This document shows positions 50,316 to 55,454 of a stretch of 64,000 bases of DNA, in pieces. The position numbers and the translations under genes are program-made. Below the pieces are notes generated by a model. The model made no database searches and had not been told where the DNA came from. It saw only the letters and a list, made by a program, of their open reading frames with translations. Location: positions 3,270,001 to 3,334,000 of the forward strand of contig NZ_LT629689.1 in the NCBI RefSeq assembly GCF_900102035.1, read 5' to 3'. The first letter of the stretch is position 1; each line of letters begins with the position of its first letter. The DNA comes from Pseudomonas extremaustralis (GTDB lineage Bacteria > Pseudomonadota > Gammaproteobacteria > Pseudomonadales > Pseudomonadaceae).

Positions 50316-50560
50316 GGGTCCGTCTCTTTTATTGTTATGAGAGCTGCGATGCCCGATGCATCCTGCTCAGGTCCCTGCAACATAGTCAGGCCGGCGGCGG
50401 TTGTCTGTAATGATTCGTAAAGCTGATAGGGCATGATTTCACCCAGAACTACGGGGTTTTTCCTACGAAAAATATAAGTGCGCGCCCCTCTTCCCAACGA
50501 CCACGGCGCGATTAGAATGGCGGGCCTTCCTGTAACAACCCCTCTTACCTTTCTTAATCG

Positions 50561-50938
50561 ATGACGCCCATGTCCGAAGCCAGTCCGTGTCTGAATTGCG
50601 GTGCCTGCTGTTCACACTTTCGTGTGTCTTTCTTCTGGGGTGAGTGCGCCTCCTCGGGTGGCACAGTGCCCGACGACCTGGTGGTGCAGATCAGCCCCTC
50701 TCGTGTGGCGATGATCGGCACCGACCAGAAACCCGCACGCTGCTGCAGCCTGGAGGGCACAGTCGGCCAGGCCACCAGCTGCTCGATCTATGCACAGCGT
50801 TCCAGTGTCTGCCGCGAGTTCGAGTCATCATGGAGCCAGGGCGTGCAGAACATCGATTGCGACACCGCTCGCGCCGCGTTCGGCCTGGCGCCGCTGGAAG
50901 CAGCGCCCTACGAGCTGGAGTTGCCCATCAGCGCCTAG
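50561..50938 (+). CDS. YkgJ-family zinc/iron-chelating cysteine cluster protein
   Basis: 125 aa (ATG 50561; ATG 50570 is equally possible). Cysteines in SPCLNCGACCSHF (positions 10, 13, 16, 17), RCCSLEG, TSCSIYAQRSSVCREFESS and NIDCDTA give the CxxCxxCC...C...C pattern of the CxxCxxCC (YkgJ/UPF0153) family, which binds Zn2+ or an iron-sulfur cluster. Function uncertain. Divergent from the MFS gene. Confidence 0.88.
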   Translation: MTPMSEASPCLNCGACCSHFRVSFFWGECASSGGTVPDDLVVQISPSRVAMIGTDQKPARCCSLEGTVGQATSCSIYAQRSSVCREFESSWSQGVQNIDCDTARAAFGLAPLEAAPYELELPISA

Positions 50939-51285
50939 CATCGATTAGTGACGCGGCTGCACAGGGAGCGCGACCGGCACCCGATCATCGCCCGGCTCAG
51001 CGAAGTGGATCAGGCCCGCGTCGAAACAGCCATTCCATGGTCACGCCCGCACCATCTCGGTCATCAGGCCAATTCGCTGACGCCCAATCTTTGGCATTTC
51101 GCCACTATTTTGCCTAAAGAACGCCGAGAAACGGCCGATTCATCAGAGTCCGGCCAGGTTTTCTCTGGGCATACCAGGGTCAAGCCCGATAGCCCCGGAC
51201 AAGGACGCACTGTAAAGTCGCGAACTCTCATTCCGTGATGGCCACTTGATATCTTTCAGCCATCCGCTCAGGCACTTGGCGCACA
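50939..51285. other. Gap before the FtsZ-like gene
   Basis: 347 bp. A 96-codon open frame at 50948-51238 begins TRLHRERDRHPIIARLSEVDQ and has a somewhat protein-like start, but no Shine-Dalgarno and a disordered end; I do not call it as a gene. No clear terminator or promoter for the FtsZ-like gene was found here. Confidence 0.4.
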
Positions 51286-53463
51286 ATGACTCCTAAAAAT
51301 AATGCTTCCACCGTGGTATCCGACGTGTTGCTCCCAGCTCCTGCGGAAAAGCCCTCAGGTTCGAAGTCATTGAGCACCGCCCGCCCGTTGGCCACTCAGC
51401 AGTACCTTTACTTCACCGAAACCAATACCGATCGCATCCTGGATAACCTGGACGGCTTGCGCGACATGGTGTTCCCGCGCCCGCCCCACACGGAAGGCGA
51501 CGGCGAACTGCGCAGCGAGCAGGAGTTTCCTTCGGTATGCCTGATCGGCCTGGGCCGCTGCGGCTCGAACATCGCGCTGGACGTGGCCGAATTGGTCTAC
51601 AACGCACGCAAGTTCTACCTGAACGAATTCAGTACCGAAGACAAGTCGCTGGACAAGGGCTACAGCCCCGCCCAGTGGATTCGCAACAACCTGCGCCTGG
51701 GCAGCGGCAAGGCCAGCAAACCGGTGTTCCTGGTAGAGCCGCTGGTGATGCTGGGCGACTTGGACAAGGACATCGCCGGGCGCATCCGTTTCTCGCGCAA
51801 GGGCGAAAAAAGCGGTTTCCTGCGCGACTACAGCAAGATGAAAATCATGGACCTGTCGGAAGTCCATGCCGGCGGCGCCGGTAACGCGCCGATCCTGGGC
51901 CAGTACCTGGCCAAGATCATCCTCAACAAAGACACCCAGCGCTTTTCCAGCCCCGACTGGAAGATGATCCACTCGTACCTGATCGACTCCTGCGGCATCA
52001 AGGCCAACCAGTCGCGCCTGTACTTCTCGATCTTCAGCGCCGGCGGCGGCACCGGTTCAGGCATGGCCTCGGAGTTCGGCCTGGCGCAACAGCACTCGTA
52101 CATGAACAAGACGTTCGACACCAAGCCTGCCGACGAGCACGACAGCAAGAGCGGCCACGCCTTTGTCTTCGAGCCGATCTTCACCAGCGGCATCTGCGTG
52201 CTGCCGAATATTTCCGATCACCGCAGCGAAATGTCCGAGGCGCTGCACATCAACGCCGGTCGGCTGCTGTGCAAATACCTGTCGGAAGAGTGGGATTTCT
52301 CATACAACTTCGCCAATGAAGACAGCAGCGAAGCCAGCGTGAAAGGTCGCATCCGACCGTGGAACGCGATGATGCTGATTTCCAATGACATCATGCGCTA
52401 TGCCGAAGAGAGCGATGACGGCAACATCCAGAACATTGACGTCAATGCCATGGAAAAACACGCCAACCAGTACATCTCTCAACAGATCTTCAACATCCTG
52501 ACGGCCCAGGCCGTAACCACCGACTACGACCAGAACTATTTCCGTCGTGCCGGTATCGACATCGGCGAAACCATTCGCCTGGATGCCAATGACCTGTTCA
52601 TGAGCCTGGCCGGCCCGGTGGCGATTGCCTACGCCGAATCCGTGGTCCCGGAAACCCCGGCGCCGTCGAACGACAAGTTCAAGGTGTTCGACAAAGAACC
52701 CCAGCGCCTGAACATCGACGACCTGTTCTTCCGTTCCATCGACCTGCCGCACTTCAACAAGGTCACCCAGGCCATCGAAGGCATCAGCCTGCTGCCGATC
52801 GAATCCAAGCGCTACAAGGCCTCCCTGGAACAGTACAAGAACTCCGGCTACGACGCCGCGGCGCTGCATGACCTGCACTTTTTCAAGAACTGCTCGTCGG
52901 TGGTGTCGATCGTGTCCTTGCCCAAGGACTACAAGCTGTCCTACATGGACCTGAACCGGCTCAAGACCCACCTCAACAGCCTGTTCCCCAACACCACCCT
53001 CAAGCGCTATGCCCTGGTGATCGGCGCTTCGGCGAACCTGTCGCTGACCACCTTGATCGCGAAAAGCCCATGCCTTTCGGATGATTTTCTCACCCTGATC
53101 GTGGCCTTTATCAAGCGCTGCTTCGCGCGCAACCCGTACCGCTTCGACGACACGCTGGACAACTCGATCCTGGATTTCATCATCCACGAGGAATTCGACG
53201 AAGGCCGTATCGATGAGTTGCTCAACGAGTTCGAAAACCCGGCGAAGATCCTCGATACCAACTGGTACGCGATCAAACCAATGTATGAGAAGAAGTACCG
53301 CGAATTGATCAACGACAAAGAGAAGTTCGTGTCGATCAATGACATTCGCCTGTCACGGGATTGCGTGAAGAAGGCGATCAAGTACCTGCGTGAGATCTAC
53401 CGTCACCGCATCGGCAAGACCAAGGTCATTTCGTTGAATAACCATACCGGCAAGACGGCCTAA
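51286..53463 (+). CDS. FtsZ/tubulin-like GTPase-fold protein, 725 aa
   Basis: 725 aa. After about 80 disordered residues comes a Rossmann start VCLIGLGRCGSNIALDVAEL (residues 84-103, compare the FtsZ G-V-G-G-x-G-x-N loop), then FSIFSAGGGTGSGMASEF at 248-265, which contains the tubulin/FtsZ signature GGGTGSG at 253-259, followed by ICVLPNISDHRSEMSEALHINAGRLL, in the place of the tubulin helix that contacts nucleotide. The 460 C-terminal residues match nothing I know. It probably belongs to the proteobacterial FtsZ-like families described by Makarova and Koonin (2010). Stands alone; ends near a REP-like hairpin. Confidence 0.75.
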   Translation: MTPKNNASTVVSDVLLPAPAEKPSGSKSLSTARPLATQQYLYFTETNTDRILDNLDGLRDMVFPRPPHTEGDGELRSEQEFPSVCLIGLGRCGSNIALDVAELVYNARKFYLNEFSTEDKSLDKGYSPAQWIRNNLRLGSGKASKPVFLVEPLVMLGDLDKDIAGRIRFSRKGEKSGFLRDYSKMKIMDLSEVHAGGAGNAPILGQYLAKIILNKDTQRFSSPDWKMIHSYLIDSCGIKANQSRLYFSIFSAGGGTGSGMASEFGLAQQHSYMNKTFDTKPADEHDSKSGHAFVFEPIFTSGICVLPNISDHRSEMSEALHINAGRLLCKYLSEEWDFSYNFANEDSSEASVKGRIRPWNAMMLISNDIMRYAEESDDGNIQNIDVNAMEKHANQYISQQIFNILTAQAVTTDYDQNYFRRAGIDIGETIRLDANDLFMSLAGPVAIAYAESVVPETPAPSNDKFKVFDKEPQRLNIDDLFFRSIDLPHFNKVTQAIEGISLLPIESKRYKASLEQYKNSGYDAAALHDLHFFKNCSSVVSIVSLPKDYKLSYMDLNRLKTHLNSLFPNTTLKRYALVIGASANLSLTTLIAKSPCLSDDFLTLIVAFIKRCFARNPYRFDDTLDNSILDFIIHEEFDEGRIDELLNEFENPAKILDTNWYAIKPMYEKKYRELINDKEKFVSINDIRLSRDCVKKAIKYLREIYRHRIGKTKVISLNNHTGKTA

Positions 53464-53469
53464 GCGTTT

Positions 53470-53497
53470 GTGGCGAGGAAGCACGCTCCCTCGCCAC
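53470..53497. repeat. REP-like palindrome (GTGGCGAGG family)
   Basis: GTGGCGAGG pairs with CCTCGCCAC around AAGCACGCTC. It is a third REP class seen in pseudomonads and lies 6 bp after the FtsZ-like gene, where it may stabilise or end the transcript. Confidence 0.75.
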
Positions 53498-53684
53498 GAC
53501 AACCTGCTTACACCGAGAAACAATTGCTCGCACATTCCCCGTCGCGCAAAACTGTTGCCATGACGCACACGTCACCCTCGCATGTGACCTTTCTCCACGG
53601 CAACGTGCCATCAGGATCCTAGCGGTTACTCCGCTACCCACTTCGTCCCGGACACAACACGCACCATATTGGCGCGTCGCGTTC

Positions 53685-53987
53685 CTACGATGCCCTTTCC
53701 TGGATCAAAATCCACGGTGAAACCACCACCGCCCACAGGCCAGGGTCGCGCTCCACCAGGTCCAATGCCCGCGTCGCAGACACTTCGCCCAGGCTGCCCG
53801 CGGCCAGCCAGGCAGCGACTTTGTCACGGTTATCGTCGGCCATTGCCTCGGCGGCCTCGATCAAATCCAAGCCGGCGTCGACCCACAATAGGGCACCCTT
53901 GGCAAAGAACGGTTCAAGCTCCTTCCAGGAAATTTCGGCGGTTTCACCGAGCAGCTTGGCATAGAGGGTGCTAGGTTCTTGCGTCAT
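53685..53987 (-). CDS. DUF2288 family protein
   Basis: 100 aa: LYAKLLGETAEISWKELEPFFAKGALLWVDAGLDLIEAAEAMADDNRDKVAAWL in parts, then VSATRALDLVERDPGLWAVVVSPWILIQE. Length and order match DUF2288, a small soluble helical family of unknown function widespread in proteobacteria and cyanobacteria. Single gene, ATG 53987. Confidence 0.85.
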   Translation of the reverse strand: MTQEPSTLYAKLLGETAEISWKELEPFFAKGALLWVDAGLDLIEAAEAMADDNRDKVAAWLAAGSLGEVSATRALDLVERDPGLWAVVVSPWILIQERAS

Positions 53988-54209
53988 GGGCGTCTACCTG
54001 AAGAAAAAATCGGCGCAATCATAACGTCGTGCGTCAGGTAGAAAAACCCGGTTGCAAATGAGTCATCGATAGAAAGTGTCAGGAAAGCCAAGGATTGCCT
54101 GAAACGCTGGCATCACCCGCCGCAATTCTGTCTTTTTCTTTCATTAAAGCGACACACCCCGGTTTTGCCCCCAGCAGCCAGCTTTTCAAGCGATCGACCG
54201 GCGCTCTAC

Positions 54210-54260
54210 ACTGTACCGGTACAGTTGCCAGGGCACTGCCGGGGGATATCCGAGATATCC
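54210..54260. promoter_or_regulatory. Two palindromes upstream of braC
   Basis: ACTGTACCGGTACAGT (54210-54225) is a perfect 16-bp palindrome and GGATATC-CGA-GATATCC (54244-54260) a perfect 7-3-7 inverted repeat, 66-117 bp upstream of the braC ATG. The gap 53988-54209 has nothing else recognisable. Which regulator binds is unknown; the first looks like a TetR- or MarR-type site. Confidence 0.55.
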
Positions 54261-54326
54261 GATCCGGTTCTACAGCTCACAAGGCCGCTAGAACTATAAA
54301 AAAGACAACAGTAAGAGTGGAGCACT

Positions 54327-55454
54327 ATGAATAAGGCTACTAAGCAGATTTCCAAACTGTTTGCCGCTATGGTCCTGGCTGGGGTTGCCGGCCATTCGTT
54401 CGCAGCCGACACCATCAAGATCGGCATCGCCGGCCCCAAGACCGGCCCGGTGACCCAATATGGCGACATGCAATTCATGGGTGCCAAGCAGGCCATCGCC
54501 GATATCAACGCCAAGGGCGGCGTCGACGGCAAGATGCTCGAAGCCAAGGAATACGATGACGCTTGCGATCCGAAACAAGCCGTTGCCGTGGCCAACAAAG
54601 TGGTCAACGACGGCGTCAAGTTCGTGGTCGGCCACCTCTGCTCCAGCTCCACCCAGCCAGCGTCCGACATTTATGAAGACGAAGGCGTGATCATGATTAC
54701 CCCGGCCGCCACCAGCCCGGAAATCACCGCGCGTGGCTACAAGCTGGTGTTCCGCACCATCGGTCTGGACAGCGCCCAGGGTCCTGCGGCTGGCAACTAC
54801 ATTGCCAACCACGTGAAGCCGAAAGTCGTTGCCGTCATCCACGACAAACAGCAGTACGGTGAAGGTATCGCCACCGCCGTCAAGCAGACCCTTGAAAGCA
54901 AAGGCGTGAAAGTCGCCCTCTTTGAAGGCATCAACGCTGGCGACAAGGACTTCGGCTCGCTGATCCAGAAACTCAAGCAAGCCAACGTCGACTTCGTCTA
55001 CTACGGCGGCTATCACCCTGAGCTGGGTCTGATCCTGCGCCAAGCCAAGGAAAAAGGCGTGAACGCCAAATTCATGGGCCCAGAAGGCGTCGGCAACGAC
55101 TCCATCTCGCAGATCGCACAGAATGCTTCCGAAGGTCTGCTGGTCACCCTGCCGAAGTCGTTCGACACCGATCCGGCCAACAAAGCCATCGTTGAAGAGT
55201 TCACCAAGAACAAGCAGGACCCTACCGGCCCGTTCGTGTTCCCGGCCTACTCGGCGGTTGAAGTGATTGCCGGCGGTATTGCTGCCGCGAAAAGCGAAGA
55301 CACCGCCAAAGTGGCGGCAGCTATCCACGCGGGTACCTTCAAGACCCCAACCGGCGACCTGAGCTTCGATGCCAAGGGCGACCTGAAGGACTTCAAGTTC
55401 GTGGTCTACGAATGGCACTTCGGCAAGCCGAAAACCGAAGTTTCCCCTCAGTAA
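54327..55454 (+). CDS. braC: Branched-chain amino acid ABC transporter, substrate-binding protein
   Basis: 375 aa. Signal peptide (residues 1-26, ending GHSFA), then the LIVBP domain: IKIGIAGPKTGPVTQYGDMQF, CDPKQAVAVANKVVNDGVKFVVGHLCSSSTQPASDIYEDEG in parts, YGGYHPELGLILRQA and GPFVFPAYSAVEV. A disulfide pair Cys79/Cys104 region is as in LivJ. Periplasmic receptor for Leu, Ile, Val (and Ala, Thr in Pseudomonas). Separated from braD by a hairpin. Confidence 0.95.
   Translation: MNKATKQISKLFAAMVLAGVAGHSFAADTIKIGIAGPKTGPVTQYGDMQFMGAKQAIADINAKGGVDGKMLEAKEYDDACDPKQAVAVANKVVNDGVKFVVGHLCSSSTQPASDIYEDEGVIMITPAATSPEITARGYKLVFRTIGLDSAQGPAAGNYIANHVKPKVVAVIHDKQQYGEGIATAVKQTLESKGVKVALFEGINAGDKDFGSLIQKLKQANVDFVYYGGYHPELGLILRQAKEKGVNAKFMGPEGVGNDSISQIAQNASEGLLVTLPKSFDTDPANKAIVEEFTKNKQDPTGPFVFPAYSAVEVIAGGIAAAKSEDTAKVAAAIHAGTFKTPTGDLSFDAKGDLKDFKFVVYEWHFGKPKTEVSPQ

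Follow-up and report, generated by a model that had tools for sequence, protein, structure and literature searches.

A Pseudomonas protein fitting the known FtsZl2 family, with a new structural clue in its C-terminal region

The gene considered here, ftsZl2, occupies positions 51286..53463 (+ strand, stop included) of a 64,000-nucleotide stretch of the Pseudomonas extremaustralis genome (contig NZ_LT629689.1, positions 3,270,001 to 3,334,000, hereafter the window), where it is delimited by the window's open reading frame (ORF) listing and by its orthologues, starts with ATG and encodes 725 amino acids (aa). Its product is probably an FtsZ/tubulin-superfamily GTPase other than the division FtsZ, which forms a GTP-driven filament of its own and uses a C-terminal extension as an attachment site. 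This is a known family with a new structural clue: modelling suggests that the supposedly unfamiliar tail holds the usual tubulin/FtsZ C-terminal domain, and this modelled similarity, undetected in the paper that describes the family (PMC2875224), is what is new here. Such a match would shift the question from that of an “odd GTPase” to whether FtsZl2 forms filaments, and of what.

The FtsZl2 family was defined in 2010 by Makarova and Koonin from PFL_1302 of P. fluorescens Pf-5, and PMC2875224 ascribes to it a weak PF00091 match, conserved T1, T4, T6, T7 and H7, a C-terminal region of ~300 aa with no known relatives, no coiled coil, occurrence in Proteobacteria only, and no associated genes. 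The window protein, compared with PFL_1302 by this published description and not by sequence, fits the family, sharing with it the taxon (Proteobacteria, including Pseudomonas), the weak PF00091 match, the nucleotide loops, the long C-terminal region and the absence of a gene partner, and differing from it in none of the features tested. It is thus not undescribed, and the undescribed system proposed in the first-pass annotation (made from the DNA letters alone) has to be rejected, as the family has been in print since 2010 (PMC2875224); the same paper ties membrane remodelling, the other role put forward there, to FtsZl1 and offers no functional clues to FtsZl2. The annotation was right in calling the protein little studied: sixteen years after the naming of the family, no experiments on it were found among the open-access papers listed, and in the two others that contain the string “FtsZl2” it denotes an FtsZ mutant, L272E.

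The conserved sequence features were traced in an alignment of the window protein and 31 relatives that are 56–98% identical to it (32 sequences), and column invariance was taken from the 21 sequences remaining below 90% identity; all protein features are encoded on the + strand. At a threshold of E <= 1, each of the 32 aligned sequences matched the Pfam families Tubulin and Tubulin_2, supporting the superfamily placement, and the two signatures first noticed, GLGRCGSN and SAGGGTGSG, were recovered in the translation. After a variable N-terminal part (residues 1-79, 51286..51522; 7/79 columns invariant), the T1-like nucleotide loop GLGRCGSN (residues 88-95, 51547..51570) is invariant in 32/32 sequences (G88, G90-N95) save for L89, its sole variable position, which is F in two of them. 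The T3-like loop and helix, VHAGGAGNAPILGQ... (residues 193-215, 51862..51930), align with FtsZ GAGANPEVGRQ, have 19 of 23 columns invariant and contain the fully invariant G196-G205, and the T4 tubulin signature SAGGGTGSG (residues 251-259, 52036..52062) is unchanged throughout (S251-G259, 32/32), GGGTGSG residues included; the conservation of the two signatures exceeds chance. At the level of sequence, T1, T3 and T4 place the protein in the FtsZ/tubulin superfamily.

Further along, T6, H7 and T7 of the GTPase domain are probably present as well, judging from one FtsZ alignment, the hhalign path and the statement in PMC2875224 that the family has T7. The probable S6-T6, WNAMMLISNDIMRYA (residues 359-373, 52360..52404), aligns with FtsZ IPN(E/D), its placement being unstable in other alignments, and holds the invariant N367 and D368; the probable core helix H7 (residues 386-412, 52441..52521), with an equally unstable register, holds the invariant N394; and, in the alignments, the probable T7 loop (R431 L D433 A N D436) with helix H8 (residues 429-456, 52570..52653) is invariant from R431 to D436 (32/32 in each case). 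The FtsZ alignment in question (40 of 68 FtsZl2 rows used; L187, L189 and L196 left out) shows T1, T3, T4, T6, H7, T7, H8 and the C-terminal domain in order, and the hhalign path against FtsZ likewise aligns the motifs in order, residues after T4 included. The invariant fraction is 0.72–0.83 in T1, T3, T4 and T7-H8, 0.60 in each of the segments 536-595 and 651-690, and does not exceed 0.14 in the variable N-terminal part or in residues 109-145, 276-292, 457-478, 617-650 and 691-725; the core carries large family-specific insertions.

The FtsZ/tubulin-type C-terminal domain is placed at residues 472-595 (52699..53070) by an AlphaFold2 model together with VIA-align comparisons. The model, built for the C-terminal region from FtsZl2 rows alone, reached a predicted local distance difference test score (pLDDT) of 71.2 and a predicted template modelling score (pTM) of 0.64, and all 50 of the VIA-align matches listed were FtsZ, TubZ, CetZ or tubulin, always by their C-terminal domain and with FtsZ as the best rows, these rows spanning model residues 18-141 only, with the last ~130 protein residues outside them. 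The fold, as modelled, is thus that of the FtsZ/tubulin superfamily, and of the 460 residues after the two signatures that had been considered unfamiliar, a large share would be accounted for by the probable T6, H7 and T7 and by this domain, whereas residues 596-725 (53071..53460) do remain, by alignment, a family-specific extension with a conserved PAKILDTNWYAIKPMYEKKYRE motif. This extension includes a basic amphipathic helix (residues 687-707, 53344..53406; its 687-704 part has a moment of 0.75 and a net charge of +4), residues 651-725 have a net charge of +10, and no stretch reaches the hydrophobicity of a membrane span by Kyte-Doolittle (highest 19-residue mean 1.4). About ten positions of the last helix are kept in 90% of the 32 sequences, and the low invariance of residues 691-725 means that this helix is not invariant.

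In FtsZ, the T7 loop of one subunit completes the GTP site of the next in a head-to-tail polymer, and polymer contacts in both FtsZ and tubulin involve the C-terminal domain together with the Asp pair of T7. By analogy, FtsZl2 would bind GTP, because its nucleotide loops are invariant, and would, given the parts retained, polymerise head to tail, so that D433 and D436 in each T7 loop would complete the neighbouring subunit's GTP site and drive hydrolysis. The ~130-residue extension, which carries the conserved motif and the basic helix, may be a built-in attachment site, its target being the membrane, the nucleoid or a partner encoded elsewhere, and the protein seemingly works without an operon partner. 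None of a division, DNA or membrane role is favoured over the others by the evidence. As the tail would hold a tubulin-type second domain, filament formation is a direct test, one answerable with a single purified protein in a genus that is genetically tractable.

Several results weigh against this reading. The window protein stays under both curated Pfam cut-offs, so that the relation is distant: Tubulin_2 (PF13809) and Tubulin were matched in the profile search suggested at the outset, but with 18.2 bits against a cut-off of 27 (E 0.0016) and 18.1 against 33 (E 0.0034), respectively. Other FtsZ alignments slip after T4, and the register of T6, H7 and T7 varies with the aligner and the FtsZ set, a mixed FtsZl2 and FtsZ alignment being mis-registered from there on. 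The hhalign score was no higher for FtsZ than for reversed FtsZ (30.9 vs 30.9; 30.6 vs 30.4 with a cleaner FtsZ set), the first FtsZ set containing three doubtful translations (L187, L189, L196) and the repeat with annotated ORFs giving the same outcome, and one of 19 unrelated neighbour-family decoys (8.8–30.3) reached 30.3. Structure prediction, also proposed initially, yielded the tubulin-type C-terminal domain, but the full-length AlphaFold2 model (32 rows; pLDDT 40.9) is too poor for the GTPase-domain fold. For the C-terminal model itself, VIA Z was <8 throughout and Foldseek gave no match at E <= 0.001. A BFVD search gave no match at the same threshold either, and residues 445-725 alone did not match FtsZ in hhalign (P 0.32 and 0.25), one decoy family doing better (P 0.004). 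Among sequence searches, NCBIfam gave no convincing match to the window protein, and PDB no relative (a single ribosomal protein at chance level, E 0.97).

Of the other explanations, the one that survives best, though it is rather unlikely, is that FtsZl2 does not polymerise and acts as a GTP switch, or as an FtsZ co-factor or capping partner that modulates the Z ring, which would be in keeping with the large insertions in its core, with the invariant R431 where the T7 of FtsZ has Asn, and with the presence of its own FtsZ in the source genome (the one tested); both the Asp pair of T7 and the C-terminal domain are retained, which speaks against it. Less credible still is that FtsZl2 belongs to a multi-gene membrane system with partners elsewhere in the genome, as described for its sister family FtsZl1 (PMC2875224); the basic amphipathic helix would suit such a role, but the scanned window neighbours include no member of a vWA, OmpA, kinase or further GTPase family (neighbours at other loci were partly read and for the most part assessed by clustering), and PMC2875224 reports no genes associated with FtsZl2. 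A TubZ/PhuZ-type filament segregating DNA or a replicon, domesticated from a plasmid or phage, is improbable, as FtsZl2 was found neither in 72,556 plasmid records (E 1e-5) nor in 50,697 phage records (E 0.1) nor in viral contigs, no repeat array lies within 50400-54330, no DNA-binding family adjoins ftsZl2 in the window, and its chromosomal place is largely fixed in the fluorescens group. Returning to the preferred filament-forming GTPase, it is conceivable, if doubtful, that in Pseudomonas and a few relatives a single protein, needing no partner and carrying its adaptor as the fused C-terminal extension, makes up a second tubulin cytoskeleton independent of division.

The distribution of FtsZl2 (matches at E <= 0.001) was assessed in overlapping genome samples, all drawn from within the phylum, with the genus, order, class and phylum samples including the source genome. 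Matches were present in 98/149 Pseudomonas genomes and not found in the other 51, with one match each in 97 of the 98 and a single gene in two pieces in the remaining one (G076); wider samples gave 12/194 and 23/390 genomes (order), 2/321 and 2/369 (class) and 6/349 (phylum), and, by group, 29/48 genomes of family f26 (one genus), 2/6 of family f14 and 1/3 of the order of G373. Relatives are encoded by 576 contig stretches, and the best 80 of these, from which organism names were taken, are all named Pseudomonas. In one genome (G068), the copy (L129, G068:C18:338700-356700; left out of the alignments) has lost its first half, with residues 380-724 remaining, so ftsZl2 can decay in nature, and as FtsZl2 is absent or truncated in some genomes, it is seemingly dispensable in some strains. 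Measured against the window, FtsZl2 shows stronger conservation than the major facilitator superfamily (MFS) neighbour in 9/9 loci and weaker conservation than RapA in 9/10 (equal in one); the constraint on it is firm, not extreme. The Pseudomonas considered here has, besides its normal division FtsZ, a second, strongly conserved tubulin-like protein.

The gene order in the window is RapA, MFS transporter, CxxCxxCC protein, FtsZl2, DUF2288 (opposite strand) and a periplasmic binding protein, which looks like the start of a branched-chain amino-acid ATP-binding cassette (ABC) operon (the rho-like, ppx-like and ABC names, the last for genes after the binding protein, were read by eye). The locus is largely fixed in the fluorescens group, and neighbours differ at other loci. 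That no partner gene is adjacent, as claimed initially, holds across genera, a same-strand gene being <60 bp upstream of ftsZl2 in 4/110 loci and downstream in 0/110 (110 of 112 sequences counted; L102 and L107 were dropped, the gene having been missed by the Pseudomonas-trained gene caller). An MHYT-GGDEF-EAL gene lies near ftsZl2 in 83/112 sequences (the window plus 111 loci): in 34 it is immediately upstream, in 48 it is upstream but separated from ftsZl2 by a 3-hydroxyisobutyrate-dehydrogenase-like gene, and in one it is downstream. Where adjacent, it is on the same strand, so it may be co-transcribed with ftsZl2 in some strains. As an obligate partner it was rejected, having been lost in the window, where a 71-bp remnant of this cyclic di-GMP (c-di-GMP) gene, common in relatives, persists at 50950..51020 (+), and not being found in nine other loci (L007, L028 and seven more) that keep the MFS gene and FtsZl2; one of the nine, L044, has a shorter ORF in its place. 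Directly 3' of the stop codon lies a 28-bp near-perfect palindrome (53470..53497, no strand assigned), single-copy in the window at <=3 mismatches and possibly a terminator or a Pseudomonas repeat element; promoter and terminator scans near ftsZl2 were close to chance level.

Set against known systems, TubZ, CetZ and tubulin have the C-terminal domain fold in common with the FtsZl2 model, but TubZ and PhuZ are carried by plasmids and phages, whereas FtsZl2 is chromosomal and without a partner gene, and a phage or plasmid origin was rejected on the searches above. As separate observations, 75 viral contigs in IMG/VR (L200-L272) encode FtsZ relatives, many of them as a minimal ORF of ~311 aa that lacks the customary C-terminal tail and is mostly 48–52% identical to the query, and a mobilizable Rhodoferax plasmid encodes a divergent FtsZ-like “hypothetical protein” (L199:247-1356) near a macro-domain gene. 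FtsZl1/Tubulin_2 is matched by the window protein only below the cut-off, and no FtsZl1-type operon was seen among the scanned neighbours; PMC9871819 (2023) describes Tubulin_2 FtsZ-like proteins as having neither an FtsZ_C nor a Tubulin_C domain and omits them from its main trees. The window protein is not FtsZ, as had been recognised from the letters: no dcw neighbours of ftsZl2 occur in the window, it does not sit beside ftsA, and a search of the source genome with Pfam Tubulin at E <= 1 matched a single, different protein, an FtsZ (G000:C1:3804068-3804547; 398 aa vs 725 aa) that adjoins FtsA away from the window. FtsZl2 differs from FtsZ in its insertions and C-terminal extension, in its place outside the dcw cluster, in scoring below the Pfam Tubulin cut-off, and in the Arg at the Asn position of T7, and has in common with it T1, T3, T4, the probable T6, H7 and T7, and, in the model, the C-terminal domain fold.
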